From the IMG/VR virus record IMGVR_UViG_3300033997_000179, positions 1 through 26,441 of that record: a stretch of DNA of 26,441 bases, one strand, 5' to 3'. The stretch comes from a virus. The translations under genes were made by a program, and so were the position numbers. This document shows, one piece after another, positions 4,797-23,469 of the stretch (position 1 is the stretch's first letter; each line of letters begins with the position of its first letter). The notes beneath the pieces were generated by a model that was not told the origin of the DNA, ran no database searches, and saw nothing but the letters and a program-made list of their open reading frames with translations.

Positions 4797-6520
4797 GTGA
4801 TGATGGGGTCCCGTATGGCGGCGAACCAGTCGTCTTCTGTGTTCGGGTTGGTGGCCTGGGCCATGACGCGCCCAACGGCCATGATCAGCGCCACGGCGCC
4901 GTCAATCTTGTTGTCGTTGCCCTGCTTGATCGGGCGGACGACGTCGTCGTTGCCTGGCAGGTTCTTGCCGATCACGTTGCCCACGCACCAGGTCATGATC
5001 GGGTTGCCGTCATGGTGGAAGCGTCCACTCAGGATTGCCGCTTCCAGCTCCTTCATCGGCGTGGACATGTTGGTGTAGTTCTGTGTGATCACGACCGGGG
5101 TCAGGCCTTCGTCCTCAAGCTCATGCGCTAGTCCCGTGGCGCCGTGCGGGTCAATCGGGCACTCCTTAACTGCGCACTGGCGGCCGGCCTCCTTGGCCTC
5201 TTCGAGGATCTCCCGGTAGTCCACCTCGGCGCCGGCCGTCTCGATCAGGTCTCCGGTGTTCACCCAGGCTTGGTAGCGTTCAGACATACGCTGGTTATCG
5301 GTACTGCGCACGGTGTCTTCCGGCACCCAGAAGCGCGGCGCCACGCAGTAGTAGTGGATACGGTCATCAATCACGCGCCAGAACAAGCGAGCCATGCTGT
5401 TCATGTCGAGCTTGCGAGCCAGGTCGAAGCCCAGCACGCAGTCCTGGCCCTCGTATTGCTCCAGCGTCAGGCTGGCGTCGGCGCTGTTGCGCCAGGCTTC
5501 CATGTTGTAGAAGCCAGACTTGGCCGAAACCCAGATATTCAGGTGCTTGGTCTTGAAGGTGTTGGTAAATCGAGCCGTGCGAATGGCTCTCTGCTGCTGG
5601 CTTTCCAGGTACTCGCGAAAAACCGAGATACCAAAGTTGGGGTTGGCCTTGGCCAGCACCTTGGGGTCTGTCCAGTCATCGCCTTCGTCGATGGTCCATA
5701 TCCAGCCGAACAGCTCGTCATCAGGAACGTCACCACACAGCATCTCGATGACTTGGCGACGCAAGTCATAGCATGGGCCTTCGATGTCAGAGCCGGCAGT
5801 GGTGATGATGAACATCAGCGGCTGGCGGCGAGCACCCATGCCAGTCAGCATGGTTTCGTACAAGGCGGCAGTCTGATGCTCGTGATACTCGTCAACGATT
5901 GCGCAACTGGGCGAAGCACCGTCACCTGGGTTGCCGATCAATGGTTCGAAGCGGCTACCGTCCGCGGGGCGGTTCATGTTCGAGGCGTTGACCTCGATGC
6001 CAGCCGCCTCCATCAGCATCGGCGAGCGCTTGACCATAAGCCGCGCTGGCCTGAAAACCTCCCACGCCTGTTTCTCGGTTGTCGCGCCGGCGTATATCTC
6101 GGCGCCGAATTCGTCGTCCGCCGTGAACATGCTGATGCCAAGGCCAGCGGCGATAACGCTCTTGCCGTTCTTCCTGGGCACTTCCCAATAACTGACGCGG
6201 AACCGGCGCTGCCCACTGTGCTTGCGCACCCAGCCGAATGTCATGGCCAGGCCGAACAACTGCCAGGGCTCAAGCGTGACCAGCTGACGCTTGAATGCCC
6301 ACTCCCCTTTGGTGTGGGGCAGCATCTGAATCAGCCGCAGCTTCTTCTCGGCCTTGGCCGGGTCGAAGCGATACTTGAACTTGGCACTACGGCTCTTGGC
6401 CATCTCGCAGAAATGACGCTCAACCGCCTGCTTGACGTACTTACAGCACGGCACCTTACCAGCCACGACACGCTTACCCCACCGAATCGCTGATTCGACG
6501 TTGGGGTACTTTGTTGCCAT
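4793..6520 (-). CDS. terL: Terminase large subunit
   Basis: The protein has 575 residues, normal for the HK97/P27-associated large terminase. The ATPase Walker A is in VPRKNGKS (residues 114-121), the Walker B is CAIVDEYH (206-213), and the coupling motif follows in [10 protein letters not shown]. The C-terminal nuclease has its first acidic site in [14 protein letters not shown] and a late acidic site in the stretch [14 protein letters not shown]. It pumps DNA into the prohead and cuts at packaging ends. It follows the small subunit by one base and shares ATGA with the small membrane gene. The N-terminal 45 residues before the family core are basic. Confidence 0.95.
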
Positions 6521-12179: not shown

Positions 12180-12922
12180 ATCCCAAGGTCCTCGTGAATC
12201 CAATCCAGGCTGTCGAAGTCAGGCCCGGCGGCAGGCTGGCGGGCCATCTGGGCGCGCTGGGCGTAGGTTTGCGCGTTGAGCATCCACGTTCGCCATGTGG
12301 CCACCCAGTCGGCCCGCGTCTCACCCTTGCCGCGCCAGTGGTTGCAGAACTTCTCGGTTTCCAGGCTCAAGTTCGCCGCCGGCGCACGCTCCCGCGCCCA
12401 CCGGGCCATCTCCGTGGTCAGCAGGAAGGGGTCAGGCAGCGCCGTCTTGCGCTTGGACTTGGGCTTAGGCTGAGCAACAGCAGGGGCCACAGCAGTACCC
12501 GGCGCGACAGCGGCGGGTTTCGGTTGCTCGGAGGGGACTACAGGGGTAGATGCTTTTTCTTCTGTATCTGTATCTGTATCTGGGGGCGTTACTGTAACGT
12601 TACATGCCTGTTTCTTGCGCTTGCGATAGGCTGCAACCCGCGCCGCGCTTGAGTCCGACACATATTGCCGCTTATCCCAAGCAGTGGGCTGACACGCCTC
12701 ATCAATCAGCCCCTTGGCCAGCAAAACGGCCTTTGTCTCGGCCCATTGCTCGTTACTGATGCGCAGCTGAAACGCTATCTCTGTTTCATGTAACGTTACA
12801 TCGCCGTTACCGCAACGCAGGCATAACAGCATCAGGTAACGACGCTGGTCGACCTCGCTCAGCATCTGCACCTTCGGATCGGTGGCGAACTCGGCATACA
12901 TCCGGAACCATGCATTAGCCAT
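12176..12922 (-). CDS. Lambda O-like replication initiation protein
   Basis: The chosen start is ATG 12922 (MANAWFRMYAEFATDPKVQM), giving 248 residues; the longer frame only adds sequence antisense to no conserved block. The N-terminal 95 residues look like a winged-helix replication domain (DQRRYLMLLCLRC, ISNEQWAETKAVLLAKG, YVSDSSAARVAAYRKRKK). A low-complexity linker follows (TPPDTDTDTEEKAS, then Ala/Pro-rich), and then a C-terminal domain with EKFCNHWRGKGETRADWVATW, a block common in phage replication proteins. The next gene is P-like. Palindromes and an AT-rich stretch inside this gene suggest that the origin is here, as in lambda. Confidence 0.75.
   Translation of the reverse strand: MANAWFRMYAEFATDPKVQMLSEVDQRRYLMLLCLRCGNGDVTLHETEIAFQLRISNEQWAETKAVLLAKGLIDEACQPTAWDKRQYVSDSSAARVAAYRKRKKQACNVTVTPPDTDTDTEEKASTPVVPSEQPKPAAVAPGTAVAPAVAQPKPKSKRKTALPDPFLLTTEMARWARERAPAANLSLETEKFCNHWRGKGETRADWVATWRTWMLNAQTYAQRAQMARQPAAGPDFDSLDWIHEDLGI
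12540..12841. other. Candidate replication origin inside the O-like gene
   Basis: The perfect 12-bp palindrome TGTAACGTTACA occurs twice, at 12593-12604 and 12789-12800. Further GTTAC or GTAAC pentamers lie at about 12588, 12751, 12805 and 12836, one side of the first palindrome being a triple 6-bp repeat (TGTATC) leading into an A/T-rich tract at 12540-12580. Repeated binding sites next to an easily melted stretch within the initiator gene is the lambda origin plan. The role is inference. Confidence 0.5.
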
Positions 12923-13664
12923 GGCTGTGCACCCCCATCTTCTGCGCCAGCTCAGCCAGCCCCTTTGGTGTGATGCGTACCTGGCTGGCCAGGCGCTGAT
13001 CACCCTCATCATCCAGCCCCAGCACCGTCACCTTGTGCTCCAGCCAGCCGGACGCCATGCGCGGCTGATACGCCAACCAGCGCGCACAGCCCTCCCGCCG
13101 GTAGATCCAGCGGTTGGCCTTCATCCAATCGATCATCTTGCAGCGCTGCACACCCAGGTGCTTGGCGGCATCGGTCATGCACATCGAGCCGCGGGCATTG
13201 GCAATGCGCGCCAGGGCTTCCACCTTCGGCGCCTGCTCGGTCACCACCAGGCGCAGCTGGTTGTTCTGCTCGGCCAGGTCGGCCGCAAGGCGCAGGGCTT
13301 CGGGGAGTGTTTGGGGGATGGCCGGAGCGGCCTCCAGGGCGTTCAGGCGGGCCAGCACACGGCGGCGCACGCCCTTGGATTCACGCATCGAAACCAGCAT
13401 GCACTGGTCGCGGGTCAGGTCGAAGATCACCGACTCTGTTTTGTTCAAATTTTGCACTACCCTTTTTGTGTAGTGCTCGCCTTCCAGCTCATCCTCGATC
13501 TTCTCGGCAAACTTGTTGCGCCGGATCTCGGGCTCGCCGGCCTCGGCGCGGGCCGCATTGATGATCTCCAGCAACTCGGCGCTGGTCATCGTGCGCGCCA
13601 CATTCTGCGCAGCGTGAAAACGTGGCGCGGCACTGGTGTTGCTTGGGTAATTGTCTGAGTGCAT
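12915..13664 (-). CDS. Antirepressor-type regulator with KilAC/ANT C-terminal domain
   Basis: The protein has 249 residues; ATG 13664 has GAGG seven bases upstream. The N-terminal part (MTSAELLEIINAARAEAG, RVVQNLNKTESVIFDLTRDQ, MRESKGVRRRVLARLNALE) resembles Rha-type regulatory domains. A helical linker follows, and the C-terminal part is the ANT/KilAC pattern: MTDAAKHLGVQRCKMIDWMKANRWIYRR with WLAYQP and HKVT. Proteins of this build act as phage antirepressors or early regulators. Its place as the gene before O, downstream of the CII-like gene, means it is expressed when the repressor fails. Because the cI-like protein here lacks a self-cleavage domain, an antirepressor would be a sensible inducer; that is inference. 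Confidence 0.78.
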   Translation of the reverse strand: MHSDNYPSNTSAAPRFHAAQNVARTMTSAELLEIINAARAEAGEPEIRRNKFAEKIEDELEGEHYTKRVVQNLNKTESVIFDLTRDQCMLVSMRESKGVRRRVLARLNALEAAPAIPQTLPEALRLAADLAEQNNQLRLVVTEQAPKVEALARIANARGSMCMTDAAKHLGVQRCKMIDWMKANRWIYRREGCARWLAYQPRMASGWLEHKVTVLGLDDEGDQRLASQVRITPKGLAELAQKMGVHSHG

Positions 13665-13733: not shown

Positions 13734-14156
13734 TCAGGCGGCCTTGACCGACTCGCGCAGCACATCGAGCGAAGCCGAAGCCTCACCGATCGCACGCTTG
13801 ATCTGCTGCTTCTCGTGCTGGCTCACGTGCCCGTCCTCCAGCGCCTCGACCACCGCCTTCGTCACGTCGGCAATCTCGTCATGCATGTGCAGCACTGCTG
13901 CCTGCAGGCCGGTCGACTTCACCGGCTGCTTCGCCACCAGCTCAAAGCCGAACTCATGCGCCAGCGCGGCCAAAATCCGCTTGTCCTGGCTGTGCAGCAT
14001 GATCTGCAGCAGCTGCTCCACATTCAGGCGGTGCGTGTCATCGTTCGGGTTGCAACGGTTCAACAGGCTCGTGTGGCTCATGCCCATGGCATGCGCCAAC
14101 TGCTTCGGGCCAGCGTCCAGAACCGTCTCGTGAATGGCGCGGTGTACCTCTTCCAT
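13734..14156 (-). CDS. CII-family (Phage_CP76) regulatory protein
   Basis: The protein has 140 residues. Its opening, EVHRAIHETVLDAGPKQLAHAMGMSHTSLLNRCNP, is written here only in part: the key blocks are AIHETV, KQLAHAMGMSHTSLLNRCNP (the helix-turn-helix, about residues 18-37) and DDTHRLNVEQLLQIM. This is the pattern of the phage regulatory CII/CP76 family. It binds DNA as an oligomer and is expected to promote lysogeny or early control. The C-terminal part (about 75-140) is helical. AGAGG lies nine bases before the ATG. It is followed by a strong opposite-strand terminator and the antirepressor gene. Confidence 0.82.
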   Translation of the reverse strand: MEEVHRAIHETVLDAGPKQLAHAMGMSHTSLLNRCNPNDDTHRLNVEQLLQIMLHSQDKRILAALAHEFGFELVAKQPVKSTGLQAAVLHMHDEIADVTKAVVEALEDGHVSQHEKQQIKRAIGEASASLDVLRESVKAA

Positions 14157-14908: not shown

Positions 14909-15145
14909 TCAGGCGGCGCCTTGCAGAATCTTCTTGGCCAGCGGGACAAGATCAGGGCGCAACCCGGCAATGGTGATCTCGCCACCGGATGCCTCCTGAA
15001 GGCGCTCAGCAATCTCAGGAGTCGGCTTGCGGTGGCCGCCAGCCAACTGCCAGAGATAGCCAGCACTGGTGCCGGCCTTCTTGGCGACTTCATCGCGGCG
15101 CTCTGGTGACGCTTTCGCCAGCCATTCACGCAAGTGGTCATTCAT
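14909..15145 (-). CDS. cro: Cro-like repressor, YdaS-type helix-turn-helix
   Basis: The protein has 78 residues. The helix-turn-helix is in RRDEVAKKAGTSAGYLWQLAGG (about 16-37), followed by RKPTPEIAERLQEASGGEIT, the pattern of YdaS/Cro-like phage regulators. GGAGGGG lies six bases before the ATG. As the first gene leftward of the operator region, it should compete with the cI-like repressor for the TTTAGC-N5-GCTAAA sites and lower early transcription. The divergent cI-like gene and shared operators support this. Confidence 0.85.
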   Translation of the reverse strand: MNDHLREWLAKASPERRDEVAKKAGTSAGYLWQLAGGHRKPTPEIAERLQEASGGEITIAGLRPDLVPLAKKILQGAA

Positions 15146-15176: not shown

Positions 15177-15193
15177 TTTAGCCCACGGCTAAC
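15177..15193. promoter_or_regulatory. Operator O1 (TTTAGC-N5-GCTAAC)
   Basis: A 17-bp dyad with 11 of 12 consensus positions. It lies downstream of the cro promoter start, 30 bases before cro. Confidence 0.7.
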
Positions 15194-15209
15194 ATTTCAG
15201 CAACGCAAA

Positions 15210-15226
15210 TTTAGCCATGGGCACAT
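15210..15226. promoter_or_regulatory. Operator O2 (one perfect TTTAGC half)
   Basis: TTTAGC, five bases, then GCACAT; only one half is perfect. It abuts the next operator, so a bound dimer here would touch its neighbour, and it lies next to the -35 of the cI promoter. Confidence 0.5.
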
Positions 15227-15251
15227 TTAGCAGGCAGCTAAAGAGTGTCAA
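15224..15251 (-). promoter_or_regulatory. Early promoter PR driving cro and the replication operon
   Basis: On the minus strand a consensus TTGACA (15246-15251) is followed after 16 bases by TAAATG (15224-15229). The 3' half of O3 lies over the -10. The same layout recurs at 18661-18689. Confidence 0.65.
15226..15242. promoter_or_regulatory. Operator O3 (perfect TTTAGC-N5-GCTAAA)
   Basis: Both half sites are perfect. It fills the space between the -35 and -10 of the cro promoter and contains the presumed -35 of the cI promoter. Confidence 0.75.
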
Positions 15252-15260: not shown

Positions 15261-15788
15261 ATGGATATCTTCGAAATACGAAAGGCCAACCTGATCAGGC
15301 TGATAGGCAGCCGAAGGAAAGGTGCGTGCGCTGAAAAGTGGGAGATGGCTCCAGCTCATCTAAGCCAGGTGCTTTCGAACAAAACAGCCAAGAACCTGGG
15401 CGAGGATGTCGCGCGCCGGATTGAGCAGAAGGAAGGGCTGCCGCATGGGTGGCTAGACGCCCTGCAGACGAAAGAAATTGCCGAGATGGCAGAAGCGGTC
15501 AGGCCACGCCCTTCATCGGAATCAATCAGCGAGCAGGCCGCCACCTACCAGCAGGCCCAGCGCGCCGCAGCCCTGATGGATTTCGCCACACCACGCACCC
15601 GCTCGGTGCTTGAGCGCATCAACCAGGCGGCCCTGGCCGGACGCCTGACTGACGCAGACCTCGATCTACTCGACCAGATAGCGGCGCGCTTCGAGAGCAG
15701 CGAAGGCGAACAACACGCCAGCCAGCAAGGAAGCCACCAACGCCTAAGGGAAAAGCTGCAGAAAAATGATCCACACACTCGGAAGTGA
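15261..15788 (+). CDS. cI: cI-like immunity repressor without a peptidase domain
   Basis: The protein has 175 residues. The first 68 (MDIFEIRKANLIRLIGSRRK, then WEMAPAHLSQVLSNKT and DVARRIEQKEGLPHGWLD) match the DNA-binding domain of Pseudomonas phage C-type repressors. The remainder is helical (residues 90-165) and lacks the S24/LexA-like Ser-Lys protease domain of such repressors, so RecA-driven self-cleavage is not expected. It diverges from cro across the operator cluster and overlaps the next gene, a HipA-like kinase, by 23 bases. It may thus act both as immunity repressor and as a HipB-like partner of the kinase; the second role is inference. ATG 15261 has no ribosome site, consistent with a leaderless message. 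Confidence 0.78.
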   Translation: MDIFEIRKANLIRLIGSRRKGACAEKWEMAPAHLSQVLSNKTAKNLGEDVARRIEQKEGLPHGWLDALQTKEIAEMAEAVRPRPSSESISEQAATYQQAQRAAALMDFATPRTRSVLERINQAALAGRLTDADLDLLDQIAARFESSEGEQHASQQGSHQRLREKLQKNDPHTRK

Positions 15789-16644
15789 TGCATTTGCAGG
15801 TGCGCTCAAGGCGCCGAAAGCAGTAGGTATCAGCCCCCTGTTCCGTGCCAACATCAGGGTCAACGGGGAGCGGTTGCGCTGCTACGTCAAGCCCATGCCG
15901 GACATGATCGACTGCCCGGCCACGCGCCGCAGCGTTGAAAACCGCGAAATCATCAATGAGGCGCTGGGCTACGTGCTGGCCGAGGCCTGCGGTTTTCGCG
16001 TGCCCGCTGTGGCCGGCATCATCCTGCTGGAGCGCGAGCAGATCCCCCAGCACCTGGCCGAGGAGCTGACCCGGCTGGGTGGCGGCGCCCAGGCCAACTA
16101 CCTCTGCTGGTTCAGCCAGGACATGAACCACCCCAACCTGGTGCAGAAGCACATGAAGGGCATCACGCTCGACTTCTTCCACCAGCGGCGCCTCAAGCGC
16201 CTGGTCAAGCACATTACCGAAGCACCCAATACGCCCAAGGTCATCGCCTTTGACGACTGGCTATTCAACTCGGATCGCCACCCCGGCAACCTGCTGGCCA
16301 GCACCCCAGACCCTACCCTGATCGATCATGGCAGGATCTTGGTCTACCCTAACTGGAAACCAGGCAGGCTTGGCGCGTTTGGCCCTGGCTACAGGCCAGG
16401 CAACCGCCTGCGGAACTTCATCGACGAGCACGAGCCGAATTGGAGTGAGAAGTTACCCAAGAAAAGCGAGATGCTCATGGCGTACAATTCGTTCGCAGTC
16501 AGCTTCAGGGAGCGAGGCGAAACAGCGGCCAGAGCAGTGCTGGCTGAGTTTTTCGACACCATCGACACTGACGCAATTGTCACCCTGCTGCGCATGCGGC
16601 ACGACCCGGCGGCCTACGCCAAAGCATCTGGCATGGTTCTATGA
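15766..16644 (+). CDS. HipA-like kinase
   Basis: The protein has 292 residues and shows the protein-kinase-like HipA_2/PI4K pattern: a likely ATP-binding Lys42 in YVKPMPD, an acidic helix RSVENREIINEALGYVL with Glu61 or Glu65, the catalytic loop FDDWLFNSDRHPGNLL (Asp170, Asn175) and the metal-binding IDHG (Asp187). All key residues are present, so it should be active. HipA kinases phosphorylate tRNA synthetases and stop growth; the target of this class is not known. The start overlaps the repressor gene by 23 bases with a weak ribosome site, implying coupled translation; the stop shares ATGA with the DUF3037-like gene. In lambda this place holds rexA, a phage-exclusion gene. Confidence 0.72.
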   Translation: MIHTLGSDAFAGALKAPKAVGISPLFRANIRVNGERLRCYVKPMPDMIDCPATRRSVENREIINEALGYVLAEACGFRVPAVAGIILLEREQIPQHLAEELTRLGGGAQANYLCWFSQDMNHPNLVQKHMKGITLDFFHQRRLKRLVKHITEAPNTPKVIAFDDWLFNSDRHPGNLLASTPDPTLIDHGRILVYPNWKPGRLGAFGPGYRPGNRLRNFIDEHEPNWSEKLPKKSEMLMAYNSFAVSFRERGETAARAVLAEFFDTIDTDAIVTLLRMRHDPAAYAKASGMVL

Positions 16645-17516
16645 GCAACCTGGCAAAATTACGCGAGCGGCTGAGCGCTACCGAACAATCGGTAGTCAAG
16701 GGCTTGTGGCGCCCGATAAGCGCCTGCCTGGATGAAGACACCGGCGAGTTCCTCAACGTCGGCGTCATGTTCGAGCACGGCGGCAAGGTTGAAGTGCGCA
16801 TGCTTGACAGCTTCGAGCGCATCAAATGCCTCTACGGCCAGCGTCTCGACCAAGCCAGCCTGATGCACCTGATGGTCGACATCGAAGAAACCATCCGCCG
16901 CAACCCGGTTGATCTGCCCAGCGAACTCAGCGAAACCATTCGCCTGGGTGAACCGCTGTTCGCCTCCGGGGCGGATGCCGAAAGCGTGGTCGATGAGTTC
17001 TTCCTCGACGTAGTGACACTGGGCATGCCCAGCGACAAGACGCGCAACAACAACTTTCGCTACCGCTCCAACCACAAGGTGCGTGAAACCCTGTTCGAGA
17101 TCATGCGCGAGAAGATGGCGCTACAGGCCGACCGCATCATCTGTGCCGAGCCCTACACGCTGAAGCTGCCCAACAGCGCCAGCATCGAGGTCGACATCGC
17201 CCTGCTCAATGAGCGCGCCGCCGGCGCTGTGGTGTCAGCCTGGTACAAAAGCCCCATGGTAGTCGAGAACAACCTACTGCAGGCGTCATCCGATCTACTG
17301 CTGATCACCAGCAACTCCGACCGCAAGCACGCCTCCATGTCCGTGCTGATGCCGCATGAGGCCAGCGGCATGAGCCGCCTGGAGTTCACCAAGCACCAGG
17401 ACACCACGCGGCGCTTGCTTGATCGTTACCAGAAGTACGGCATCGACATCATCGAGGCGCCATCCAGCGATGTGCTGGCCAACAGCACCATTGAGTGGTG
17501 GGGGAAAGTGGCTTGA
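16641..17516 (+). CDS. DUF3037-like protein paired with the kinase
   Basis: The protein has 291 residues. The N-terminal third (GLWRPISACLDEDTGEFLNV, then GVMFEHGG and MLDSFERIKCLYG) has the DUF3037 pattern, in which E-F-x-N-V/I-G-V is the key motif. The C-terminal half (about 165-280) looks like a separate alpha/beta domain with IEVDIALLNERAAGAVVSAW, NLLQASSDLLLITSNSD and RLLDRYQKYGIDIIEAP, which I cannot name. DUF3037 genes are often next to HipA_2-type kinase genes, which supports both calls. ATGA overlap with the kinase implies a fixed ratio. It could be an antidote, a substrate adaptor or a sensor; nothing in the sequence decides. Confidence 0.6.
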   Translation: MSNLAKLRERLSATEQSVVKGLWRPISACLDEDTGEFLNVGVMFEHGGKVEVRMLDSFERIKCLYGQRLDQASLMHLMVDIEETIRRNPVDLPSELSETIRLGEPLFASGADAESVVDEFFLDVVTLGMPSDKTRNNNFRYRSNHKVRETLFEIMREKMALQADRIICAEPYTLKLPNSASIEVDIALLNERAAGAVVSAWYKSPMVVENNLLQASSDLLLITSNSDRKHASMSVLMPHEASGMSRLEFTKHQDTTRRLLDRYQKYGIDIIEAPSSDVLANSTIEWWGKVA

Positions 17517-17634: not shown

Positions 17635-18138
17635 ATGTCTGCAAAAGCCGCCGCTCCTGCGCTCATCGTCGCAGCAATGGCACTGGTTGGAGACTACTCG
17701 GCAGCAGCCGAGACAACCAAGCAGGGTCGTGATGCTCAACACCTGTCGATTCCATTCAAGCAGGAAGACATCCGCGAGGTCATCGCAAAGATGGTCGGAG
17801 ACTGGAACGCGCTGGATGCCGATTACATGAAAATCGTTGCGAGCCTGGCTGAGTTCAGCAGGTTCGACGAAGAGCAGTTTCTCAAGAACATGGAGCTGCT
17901 GAAGGCCACTCGCCAACTCGAGGCGGCGCTGCAACAAGCGCAAGTGCCTGAGATTTTGAGCAGCGAGCATATGGCGCTACGCCGGGCTATCGCCAAGGTC
18001 AGAGGCCGCCTGGTCACCATTGATCACCTCCTCCGCCAACACTTCGTAACCCTAGACGAGTTTGAAACCCGTCTGTCTGGCAAGGCGTTAAGCGACTTGG
18101 CCGATCACACCAATCGGCAGCTGGCTAAGCTAGCCTAA
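17635..18138 (+). CDS. Unknown protein upstream of YafO toxin, candidate antitoxin
   Basis: The protein has 167 residues; AGGAG precedes ATG 17635. The first 25 residues (MSAKAAAPALIVAAMALVGD, then YSAAAE) are mildly hydrophobic and could be a weak signal peptide. The rest is helical and charged (FKQEDIREVIAKMVGDWNAL, MELLKATRQLEAALQQAQVP, AKVRGRLVTIDHLLRQHF). It is not a Phd/YefM protein like the usual antitoxin YafN. It ends eight bases before the toxin gene and both share one promoter, so it is the natural antitoxin candidate. If the N-terminus is truly exported, that role fails and the protein is something else. Confidence 0.65.
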   Translation: MSAKAAAPALIVAAMALVGDYSAAAETTKQGRDAQHLSIPFKQEDIREVIAKMVGDWNALDADYMKIVASLAEFSRFDEEQFLKNMELLKATRQLEAALQQAQVPEILSSEHMALRRAIAKVRGRLVTIDHLLRQHFVTLDEFETRLSGKALSDLADHTNRQLAKLA

Positions 18139-18146
18139 GGGAGCCA

Positions 18147-18587
18147 ATGGCGGTTGAAGTCAGCTTCCACCCGGAAACATTCGCGCTCTTCTTCAAGCCG
18201 GTAGACGCCAAGCATCCAGGCCTTTCAGACACGCTTCGGGCGGAGTTTGCGCGCTACATGGAGTCCGGCCGCCTGGAGATACCCTCGATATTCGGCAAGG
18301 ATGTGCCGTACATGCAGCCCGTGCAGGCCGCCCAGGCCTGCATGATGCATATCCATATCAAGATTCCGCCTGCCACCTTCCCCAAGGGCGTGCCGCAGCA
18401 CAATCGCGTATGCCGGCGCGGCAGCCCTGGCGAAGACGCCGCCCTGATCTACGTGCCCGGCGAACTGTACGAGGATCGCTTCCTTATTCTGGCTTTCTTC
18501 TGGCCTGATGCGCACGGCAAAGCCAGGGATCGCGCCACCATGAAGAAACTTGCAAGGCTTGCACAGGCCTGGCGCGACCAGAACTGA
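18147..18587 (+). CDS. YafO-family type II toxin (ribosome-dependent mRNA interferase)
   Basis: The protein has 146 residues. It matches the YafO pattern along most of its length: SGRLEIPSIFGKDVPY, a MHIHIKI strand, the PHNR-like PQHNRVCRRGS turn, DAALIYVPGELYEDRFLILA and a C-terminal RDRATMKKLARLAQAWR, against the known E. coli YafO layout of about 130 residues. YafO cleaves mRNA during translation near the start codon. AAGGGAG lies just before the ATG. The gene ends the immunity-region insert and is followed by a strong terminator. Confidence 0.82.
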   Translation: MAVEVSFHPETFALFFKPVDAKHPGLSDTLRAEFARYMESGRLEIPSIFGKDVPYMQPVQAAQACMMHIHIKIPPATFPKGVPQHNRVCRRGSPGEDAALIYVPGELYEDRFLILAFFWPDAHGKARDRATMKKLARLAQAWRDQN

Positions 18588-18645: not shown

Positions 18646-18662
18646 TTTAGCTCTGAGCTATT
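18646..18662. promoter_or_regulatory. Operator O4 (TTTAGC-N5-GCTATT)
   Basis: One half perfect, the other with GCTA conserved. It ends on the first two bases of the -35 of the rightward promoter. Confidence 0.65.
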
Positions 18663-18689
18663 GACGTTATTTTAGCCTGTAGCTAAATT
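18661..18689 (+). promoter_or_regulatory. PL-like promoter of the right operon
   Basis: TTGACG (18661-18666), a 17-base spacer, TAAATT (18684-18689). O4 and O5 overlap it, so the lysogenic repressor should shut it off. Expected start near 18696. Confidence 0.7.
18671..18687. promoter_or_regulatory. Operator O5 (perfect TTTAGC-N5-GCTAAA)
   Basis: Both halves perfect, lying between -35 and -10 of the rightward promoter exactly as O3 lies in the cro promoter. Confidence 0.75.
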
Positions 18690-21820: not shown

Positions 21821-21949
21821 ATGACCAAAGCCTGCTGGTACGTCTGCCTGCCCTGCGGAAAGCGCTTCCCCATGGTCGGCAGCAAATGCGACCACGACGA
21901 AGCGCTGACCCACGCCCTGGGCATCTGGCCCCACTGCTGGGTGGAGTAA
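21821..21949 (+). CDS. 42-residue zinc-finger-like protein
   Basis: The frame runs from ATG 21821 to TAA 21947-21949, where it overlaps the first possible methyltransferase ATG. The product begins MTKACWYVCLPCGKRFP and carries C-x3-C-x2-C, then KCDHDE, and ends IWPHCWVE, so it has enough Cys and His to bind a zinc ion. Its translation must open the hairpin just before it. Too short for a firm family call. Confidence 0.55.
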   Translation: MTKACWYVCLPCGKRFPMVGSKCDHDEALTHALGIWPHCWVE

Positions 21950-21954
21950 TGAAC

Positions 21955-23469
21955 ATGACCATAACCTACGGCTCAATCTGCAGCGGCATCGAGGCCGCGA
22001 CCGTCGCCTGGCACCCGCTGGGCTGGCGGGCGGAATGGTTCGCAGAGATCGAGCCGTTCCCTTCGGCGGTGCTCGCCTACCGCTGGCCCGAGGTTTCCAA
22101 CCTGGGCGACATGACCAAGCTGGCCCGCCAGGTGCTGGCCGGCAGTATCGCCGCGCCGGAGGTGCTGGTGGGAGGCACGCCCTGCCAAGCGTTCTCTGTC
22201 GCCGGCATGCGCGCGGGCCTGGACGACCCGCGCGGCCAACTAACCATCAAGTATGTGGAGCTTGCAGATGCAGTTGACCATGTTCGAACCGCCAGAGGCG
22301 AGCCAGAGTGCATCGTTGTCTGGGAAAACGTCCCCGGCGTCCTCTCCGACAAAGGCAATGCGTTCGGGTGTTTCCTCGGGGCCCTGGTGGGCGAATCCGA
22401 TGCGCTCCAGCCGTCAGGGGGAAAATGGACGGACGCTGGTTGTGTGTATGGCCCCGTCCGAACAGCCGCATGGCGGGTGCTGGATGCCCAATATTTCGGC
22501 CTGGCCCAACGACGCCGCCGTGTGTTCGTTGTCGCAAGTGCTAGAGCAGGGTTCGATCCCGCTGCGGTACTTTTTGAGTCCGAAGGCGTGCGCCGGGATA
22601 CTGCGCCGCGCAGAGGCGAGGGGGAAAACCCTACCGGCACAATTGCAGGTGGCGCTCGCAGAAACGGCGGATACAGCACCGACGATATCCCACTGACTGC
22701 TGCGACTATCACAGCCAACTACGGCAAGGATGGCGGCGCCCGAGCAGGCAACGACTGTCAGCCAGTGAACCTCATCGTCGCCGGTACGCTTCAGGCCAAC
22801 GGCAAAGCAGCCAGCAGCGCCACACAGCAGGATGCGGAAAGCGGCCTGCTGGTGGTGCACGGCACGCAAGATCCATGCGTCGATGACCATATCGCTCACA
22901 CCCTGGGCAGAAACCATGGCCAAGAAAACGCCATTTTCGCAATTCAGAACGCCACTCGCGGGAAGGATCAGAACGGCCTTGGCATTGCCGCCGACTCGCC
23001 GATGTACACGCTGGATCAGGCCAGCCAGCACGCTGTTTTCGCTATTCAAGCCGGCGCATTGCGCACCAATCCACTGAGCGGCCCTGATGGCGTAGGCGTT
23101 CAGGCTGATCATGCATACACGCTTGAGGCTCGCGCCGAAGTTCAGGCGGTGGCTGTCGCTCTGCGCGGCAGGGATGGTGGCGCAACGGCGGAGCTGGGAG
23201 ACGAGGTGCAAAACTGCCTGCGCGCTTCGAACGGTGGCGGGGACAAGTCGCACGTTATGATCAGTTCTGGTGTCCGCAGACTAACTCCCATCGAATGCGA
23301 GCGACTACAGGGATTCCCTGACAACTGGACGCAGATCCCATGGCGCGGCAAGCCGGCCGAGGAATGTCCCGACGGCCCGCGCTACAAGGCCATCGGCAAC
23401 AGCAAAGCCGTCCCGGTTGTTCGCTGGATCGGCCGGCGCATTCAGCGCGAACTGGAGCGTGCCCAATGA
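21955..23469 (+). CDS. dcm: Cytosine-C5 DNA methyltransferase
   Basis: The chosen start is ATG 21955, eight bases after GGAG; an ATG two codons earlier is too close to it. The protein has 504 residues. Motif I is YGSICSGIEAAT, motif IV is GGTPCQAFSVAG with the catalytic Cys77, motif VI is WENVPGVL, motif VIII is FGLAQRRRRVF, and IX-X lie at the end (LTPIECERLQGFPDNW, YKAIGNSKAVPV). The target-recognition region is long, with two similar units marked by FAIQ and by AD-x-x-YTL. It methylates cytosine, likely shielding phage DNA from host restriction. No cognate nuclease is nearby. Part of the coding region doubles as the frame at 22268-22696. Confidence 0.93.
   Translation: MTITYGSICSGIEAATVAWHPLGWRAEWFAEIEPFPSAVLAYRWPEVSNLGDMTKLARQVLAGSIAAPEVLVGGTPCQAFSVAGMRAGLDDPRGQLTIKYVELADAVDHVRTARGEPECIVVWENVPGVLSDKGNAFGCFLGALVGESDALQPSGGKWTDAGCVYGPVRTAAWRVLDAQYFGLAQRRRRVFVVASARAGFDPAAVLFESEGVRRDTAPRRGEGENPTGTIAGGARRNGGYSTDDIPLTAATITANYGKDGGARAGNDCQPVNLIVAGTLQANGKAASSATQQDAESGLLVVHGTQDPCVDDHIAHTLGRNHGQENAIFAIQNATRGKDQNGLGIAADSPMYTLDQASQHAVFAIQAGALRTNPLSGPDGVGVQADHAYTLEARAEVQAVAVALRGRDGGATAELGDEVQNCLRASNGGGDKSHVMISSGVRRLTPIECERLQGFPDNWTQIPWRGKPAEECPDGPRYKAIGNSKAVPVVRWIGRRIQRELERAQ
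22268..22696 (+). CDS. Out-of-frame gene inside the methyltransferase gene
   Basis: ATG 22268 has GGAG seven bases upstream and opens a 142-residue frame, MQLTMFEPPEASQSASLSGK, continuing with TSPASSPTKAM, PNISAWPNDAAVCSLSQVLE and RYFLSPKACAGILRRAEARG before KTLP. The last block is a pattern I know from separate phage proteins that lie beside methyltransferase genes. In the methyltransferase frame the same bases encode conserved parts such as WENVPGVL and AQRRRRVF. Both frames therefore look functional. Long open frames arise easily in GC-rich DNA, so the case rests on the recognised pattern and the ribosome site. Confidence 0.5.
   Translation: MQLTMFEPPEASQSASLSGKTSPASSPTKAMRSGVSSGPWWANPMRSSRQGENGRTLVVCMAPSEQPHGGCWMPNISAWPNDAAVCSLSQVLEQGSIPLRYFLSPKACAGILRRAEARGKTLPAQLQVALAETADTAPTISH

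Follow-up and report, generated by a model that had tools for sequence, protein, structure and literature searches.

What are a HipA-like kinase and a DUF3037 protein doing directly behind the immunity repressor of a lambda-like prophage, in the slot that rexAB occupies behind cI in lambda? The two genes lie in a 26,441-nt stretch of DNA (the window) from one IMG/VR virus record, IMGVR_UViG_3300033997_000179, and the host of this dormant virus is probably Pseudomonas. We conclude, with a probability of about 0.7, that they form a divergent HipAD (PDC-M66/DS-6) toxin-antitoxin (TA) defence cassette, expressed in the lysogen from the rexAB position.

A kinase-DUF3037 cassette between two operator clusters

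The reading frames of the repressor and the kinase share 23 bases (15766-15788), and those of the kinase and the DUF3037 protein share the four bases ATGA (16641-16644; Table 1). Inverted repeats of the type TTAGCNNNNNGCTAA stand on either side of this unit. With at most one mismatch allowed, four such sites occur in the window versus 0.39 expected, a count reached in none of 100 shuffles, and all four surround the immunity region. An initial reading made from the letters alone (the sequence-only reading) had described three overlapping genes between two operator clusters, and the reading frames, overlaps and operator clusters are confirmed. The DUF3037 gene does not directly adjoin the right-hand operators, with a second two-gene cargo (17635-18587) placed between them. 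The 167-aa gene and the YafO gene of this second cargo are also paired in Pseudomonas phage D14L. Because they too lie between the operators, the immunity region carries two toxin-like cargoes.

Table 1. Coordinates of the immunity region and its cargo genes in the window.
Feature	Position	Strand	Remarks
KilAC antirepressor	12915-13664		left of cro-like gene; PF03374
CII-like regulator	13734-14156		left of cro-like gene; PF06892, E=5.9e-32
Cro-like HTH protein	14909-15145	-	divergent from repressor; phrog_10248, E=5.5e-16; phrog_35 (repressor), E=8.8e-11
Operator cluster OR	15178-15241		between Cro and repressor
OR site TTAGCCCACGGCTAA	15178-15192		
OR site TTAGCCATGGGCACA	15211-15225		weaker
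OR site TTAGCAGGCAGCTAA	15227-15241		
HTH immunity repressor	15261-15788	+	175 aa; phrog_5736, E=1.7e-12
HipA-like (HipAD/PDC-M66A type) Ser/Thr kinase	15766-16644	+	292 aa; alignments, AF2 model, fold matches
DUF3037 (HipAD/PDC-M66B type) protein	16641-17516	+	291 aa; likely antitoxin/sensor
Possible antitoxin, second cargo	17635-18138	+	167 aa; phrog_22162; upstream of YafO-like toxin gene
YafO-family toxin, second cargo	18147-18587	+	PF13957, E=3.9e-19
Operator cluster OL	18647-18686		
OL site TTAGCTCTGAGCTAT	18647-18661		
OL site TTAGCCTGTAGCTAA	18672-18686		

A replication gene also lies left of the cro-like gene, with the terminase and portal genes farther left. To the right of the immunity region is a DNA-methyltransferase-like gene (21886-23469; phrog_116, E=6e-87) with a possible anti-restriction role. 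The cargo is co-oriented with the repressor and runs from OR to OL, as does that of five relatives, in agreement with the rexAB-like position claimed in the sequence-only reading. Scans with Pfam, PHROGs and PADLOC matched no RexA or RexB family in the window; the cargo genes belong to the kinase, DUF3037 or unnamed families instead.

The repressor had been called cI-like. This description fits its HTH half, which is about 67-77% identical to Pseudomonas phage repressors, but not its length or its C-terminal half. Four of the five Pseudomonas phage repressors compared are of S24 length (most 264-285 aa, e.g. AV001), and a Pfam scan of the 175-aa protein gave no match to the S24 self-cleavage domain. 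Its C-terminal part comprises a two-helix domain (about residues 105-145) followed by a basic tail.

The kinase retains the residues Lys42, Asp170, Asn175 and Asp187 singled out in the sequence-only reading, together with Glu65 of alpha-C, and all five are invariant across 18-19 homologues, down to 21% identity. Its AF2 model (pLDDT 89.5) matches CtkA (Z 15.6), HipA (2wiu; Z 12.6) and Legionella HipT (8ezs; Z 12.4), and the predicted fold is of the HipA/CtkA type, in keeping with the HipA-like kinase of the sequence-only reading. A dead kinase is rejected in view of the invariant catalytic residues, the confident model and these fold matches. Nonetheless, the best match, CtkA, is not known as a TA toxin, a point against the HipAD reading. 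The kinase also differs from the long HipA of canonical HipBA: it has 292 residues, its alignments with HipA start at about HipA residues 63-125, and the fused N-subdomain 1 is missing.

The family names HipA-like and DUF3037 are weak for the window proteins by themselves and firm across the family. The window kinase matches HipA_2 with an E value of 0.041 as a single sequence. Among 19 kinases, HipA_2 is found in 18 and PDC-M66A in 12, the window kinase itself falling below the cut-off. Similarly, the window DUF3037 protein has a weak single-sequence score against DUF3037 (E=0.078) and a better one against PDC-M66B (E=7.8e-5), and these profiles are found in 9 and 12 of 16 members, respectively. 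The weak scores of the window proteins count against the HipAD reading. Searches of solved-structure sequences returned nothing significant for either protein, and Foldseek gave no match below 1e-3 for the DUF3037 model. A class-wide DUF3037 search had matches in 2 of 369 genomes. The model of the C-terminal half of the DUF3037 protein (residues 143-291; window 17067-17513) resembles XPF/ERCC1/Can2-type nuclease folds with Z of about 9. This predicted likeness is too weak to use, the identity to those nucleases being low and no conserved catalytic motif being seen in this half.

The sequence-only reading knew of no described system with this arrangement, a claim that fails for the kinase-DUF3037 pair. 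A HipA-like kinase with a DUF3037 protein is PADLOC's PDC-M66, which as part of retron-Sda1 defends against Bas51 (PMC12548924). In that system, deletion of the kinase abolishes defence and deletion of the DUF3037 gene is toxic, while the HTH gene, the ncRNA and the reverse transcriptase are dispensable (PMC12548924). The same kind of pair was described as DS-6 and renamed HipAD; a kinase residue is required and AlphaFold3 predicts that the two proteins bind each other (PMC13092281). According to PMC13092281, HipAD was also found independently by work on the defences of E. coli prophages. The predicted products of the window have both sequence attributes of HipAD, an intact HipA-like kinase and an adjacent DUF3037 protein, and we place them as a divergent branch of PDC-M66/DS-6/HipAD.

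Recurrence behind exchangeable repressors

Viral contigs, genomes and phage records together yielded 68 loci, which fall into 43 clusters at 90% kinase identity; five loci were left out, three as unrelated matches and two because their sequence stopped within the kinase or shortly behind it. A DUF3037-type gene lies 3' of the kinase in all 43 clusters, and an HTH repressor lies directly upstream of the kinase in 33, so the triplet recognized in the window recurs elsewhere. The 43 clusters rule out an artefact of a single contig. Pfam scans of 41 upstream proteins detected HTH_3 in 32 and S24 in 11.

Six phages have six different operators, each of which flanks the repressor-kinase-DUF3037 unit. 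They are the window, P. aeruginosa phage D14P (L002), Moraxella phage Mcat22 (L003), L005, L014 and L017, and their operators include ATAGGNNNNCCTAT in L005, a TTAACC type in L002 and a TAAACA type in L003. Six differing operators around one unit indicate that the cassette persists while immunity specificity changes. A scripted examination of eight other loci gave no convincing shared site, and in Acinetobacter phage qsb1 the homologous pair adjoins an Arc-like gene and a tape-measure gene rather than following a cI-type repressor. For these two reasons the slot behind the repressor is not obligatory, and the qsb1 arrangement counts against the HipAD reading. From gene order across these loci, the pair nevertheless turns up repeatedly as cargo in the immunity regions of prophages, which is the new element here.

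A repressor tail that stays with the kinase

The window repressor ends in SHQRLREKLQKND (about residues 158-171). In subfamily A, whose kinases are roughly 42-71% identical to that of the window, repressors with unrelated HTH domains share the end HxRLRxKLxx(N/D)D; in subfamily B a different tail, DDMLKMLEHGMNK...KKK, stands in the same role. Both subfamilies exchange the DNA-binding domain freely, and the last 25-45 repressor residues stay with the kinase. Thus L097 and L103 are 72% identical in the HTH domain, 24% in the tail and 50% in the kinase, and the corresponding values for L102 and L103 are 18%, 53% and 87%. In these comparisons tail identity tracks kinase identity and not HTH identity.

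Scans of viral contigs gave eight matches to tail A and seven to tail B, every one before a kinase and in an already known kinase locus; the tail A scan used the close tail alignment, the wider one being too variable for scanning. Among 398 Pseudomonadaceae genomes, the tail-bearing form occurs in eight, seven of which have the kinase, versus 19 with the two-helix core but no tail, in none of which a kinase lies directly beside it. The association has a Fisher P of 9e-6 (1e-12 per genome), values that are descriptive since related genomes are not independent.

The linkage has exceptions. Tails are absent at many other kinase-DUF3037 loci, and in L005 and L030 the pair follows an S24 repressor, with tail DNA surviving only as a frameshifted remnant. 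In L005 this remnant, at positions 5960-6003, lacks one base of the tail-coding sequence and lies just before the kinase. L050 (132-1235, minus strand) has the same type of repressor, core and RLRxRL-like end included, but the gene after it is not a kinase; judged by eye from its translation, it looks DUF262-like. The DUF262-like gene suggests that other defence genes may occupy the same slot. An exclusive tail-kinase linkage is weakened by L050 and by the tail-less loci.

The tail might act mainly as a translation device, in which synthesis of the kinase would be coupled to that of the repressor through the gene overlap and an SD-like AGG, without any contact between the proteins. We regard this as a possible account, though less likely than not. 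Most members of subfamily A keep an overlap of 20-23 nt; part of the constraint on the final ND of the tail comes from the ATGAT of the kinase gene, which it overlaps; and the second tail arginine is encoded by AGG in 10 of 10 cases with arginine, despite six possible codons, at about 16 nt before the kinase ATG. That distance, however, is long for a ribosome-binding site. Moreover, synonymous differences in the tail codons are saturated (pS 0.80 versus pN 0.33), and Leu4, Leu8 and Arg3 are preserved through several synonymous codons. Because these residues are kept with different codons, most of the tail conservation is at the protein level. In the window (15742-15765) and at the same place in 10 relatives, the AGG stands as if it were part of a long-spaced ribosome-binding site. 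Coupling of this kind is compatible with the HipAD reading, and it and a protein partnership are not mutually exclusive.

Protein-level conservation is what would be expected if the repressor were a HipB-like or HipR-like third component whose tail binds the kinase or the kinase-DUF3037 complex. The toxin would then be gated by repressor status, or set free when a phage protein binds to the repressor. Such a tripartite arrangement is a stronger version of the HipAD reading and compatible with it. The travel of either tail with its kinase subfamily, the position of all 15 viral-contig matches and the distribution among Pseudomonadaceae genomes argue for it, and HipBST and the HipR/Stl proposal (PMC8262856) provide precedents. 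Conversely, physical linkage alone would also keep tail and kinase together, the L005/L030, L050 and tail-less loci manage without the combination, and in retron-Sda1 defence is intact after deletion of the HTH gene and DUF3037 alone neutralises the kinase (PMC12548924). On balance we consider a tripartite system somewhat improbable. Its most specific form, in which the phage repressor physically joins a HipAD TA system as its third component, with an exchangeable HTH that reads the operators and a tail that docks on the kinase or antitoxin, is unlikely. In looser terms, the repressor is possibly a regulatory third partner acting through its tail.

A different matter is the sequence-only proposal that the repressor is itself the HipB-like antitoxin. 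As sole antitoxin it is rejected as the best reading, because DUF3037 is the neutraliser in the tested relative, where loss of the HTH gene has no effect and loss of DUF3037 is toxic, and because the pair follows unrelated repressors.

Proposed function and relation to known systems

We propose that the cassette is transcribed in the lysogen together with the repressor, from the repressor promoter. Lysogenic expression, as the sequence-only reading had it, is likely, even though a scan found no consensus sigma-70 promoter, which speaks against the HipAD reading. The kinase, judged by its residues, fold and tested relatives, would be the toxin. The DUF3037 protein would be the antitoxin and, by comparison with Sda1 and DS-6, probably a phage sensor. 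Once freed, the kinase would stop the infected cell by abortive infection, through phosphorylation of a target that by analogy would be an aminoacyl-tRNA synthetase or some other translation factor. The repressor would set the dosage, and its tail suggests contact with the kinase-DUF3037 complex or coupling of kinase translation. At induction the operon would shut off along with the repressor, limiting self-poisoning; as the repressor falls, the phage's own lytic cycle would be spared. The defence role foreseen earlier is likely by analogy with the tested relatives.

Alternatively, the pair could regulate lysogeny by modifying the S24-less repressor or host factors and thereby triggering or blocking induction, as the KKP module of Pf prophages, which controls virion production and also defends (PMC11341870), might suggest for a repressor without a self-cleaving domain, but this is very unlikely given that the pair also follows S24 repressors and, in qsb1, an Arc-like gene, that the tested relatives defend (PMC12548924, PMC13092281), that short S24-less repressors without a kinase are common (L051-L069) and that the tail has no invariant phospho-acceptor.

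On the HipAD reading, a defence system validated only recently occupies, in many unrelated prophages, the slot classically used for exclusion, and there the cassette survives replacement of the repressor and of operator specificity. The connection that this draws between a phage immunity repressor and control of the toxin can be tested directly; if the tail does bind the kinase complex, the lysogeny switch itself would be part of a TA complex. Within the limited collection of papers searched, we found no description of the repressor-HipAD linkage or of the tail.

Several known systems share features with the locus. The kinase-kinase-phosphatase (KKP) module likewise brings prophage Ser/Thr kinases to Pseudomonas defence, but, as PMC11341870 describes it, with other kinases, a phosphatase partner and a filamentous phage. 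Lambda RexAB and the RexAB-type system of P. putida prophage P1 (PMC12894663) are likewise two-gene prophage exclusion systems, the former in the same slot behind cI as the window pair; they consist, however, of a DNA-binding sensor, RexA, and a membrane effector, RexB, without a kinase. For the HipF and HipG kinases, control by the Stl-like HipR, a relative of mobile-element repressors, with phage proteins as the possible trigger that relieves it, has been put forward (PMC8262856). That control is a proposal only and concerns other kinase families, and PMC8262856 does not mention a DUF3037 gene. HipBST also combines an HTH protein, a separate antitoxin and a short HipA-family kinase in one operon, but its order is hipB-hipS-hipT, HipS is a homologue of the HipA N-subdomain and not of the DUF3037 family, and its HipB is not a phage immunity repressor. 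No HipS-type gene lies between repressor and kinase in the window, where the two overlap, and the third gene is of DUF3037 type. PDC-M66/DS-6/HipAD comes closest, with the same two protein families, intact kinase residues and the expected roles of kinase toxin and DUF3037 antitoxin. The window pair differs from these relatives in its low similarity to them, in being overlapped by a phage immunity repressor, where retron-Sda1 has a dispensable HTH gene, and in being enclosed between that repressor's operators.
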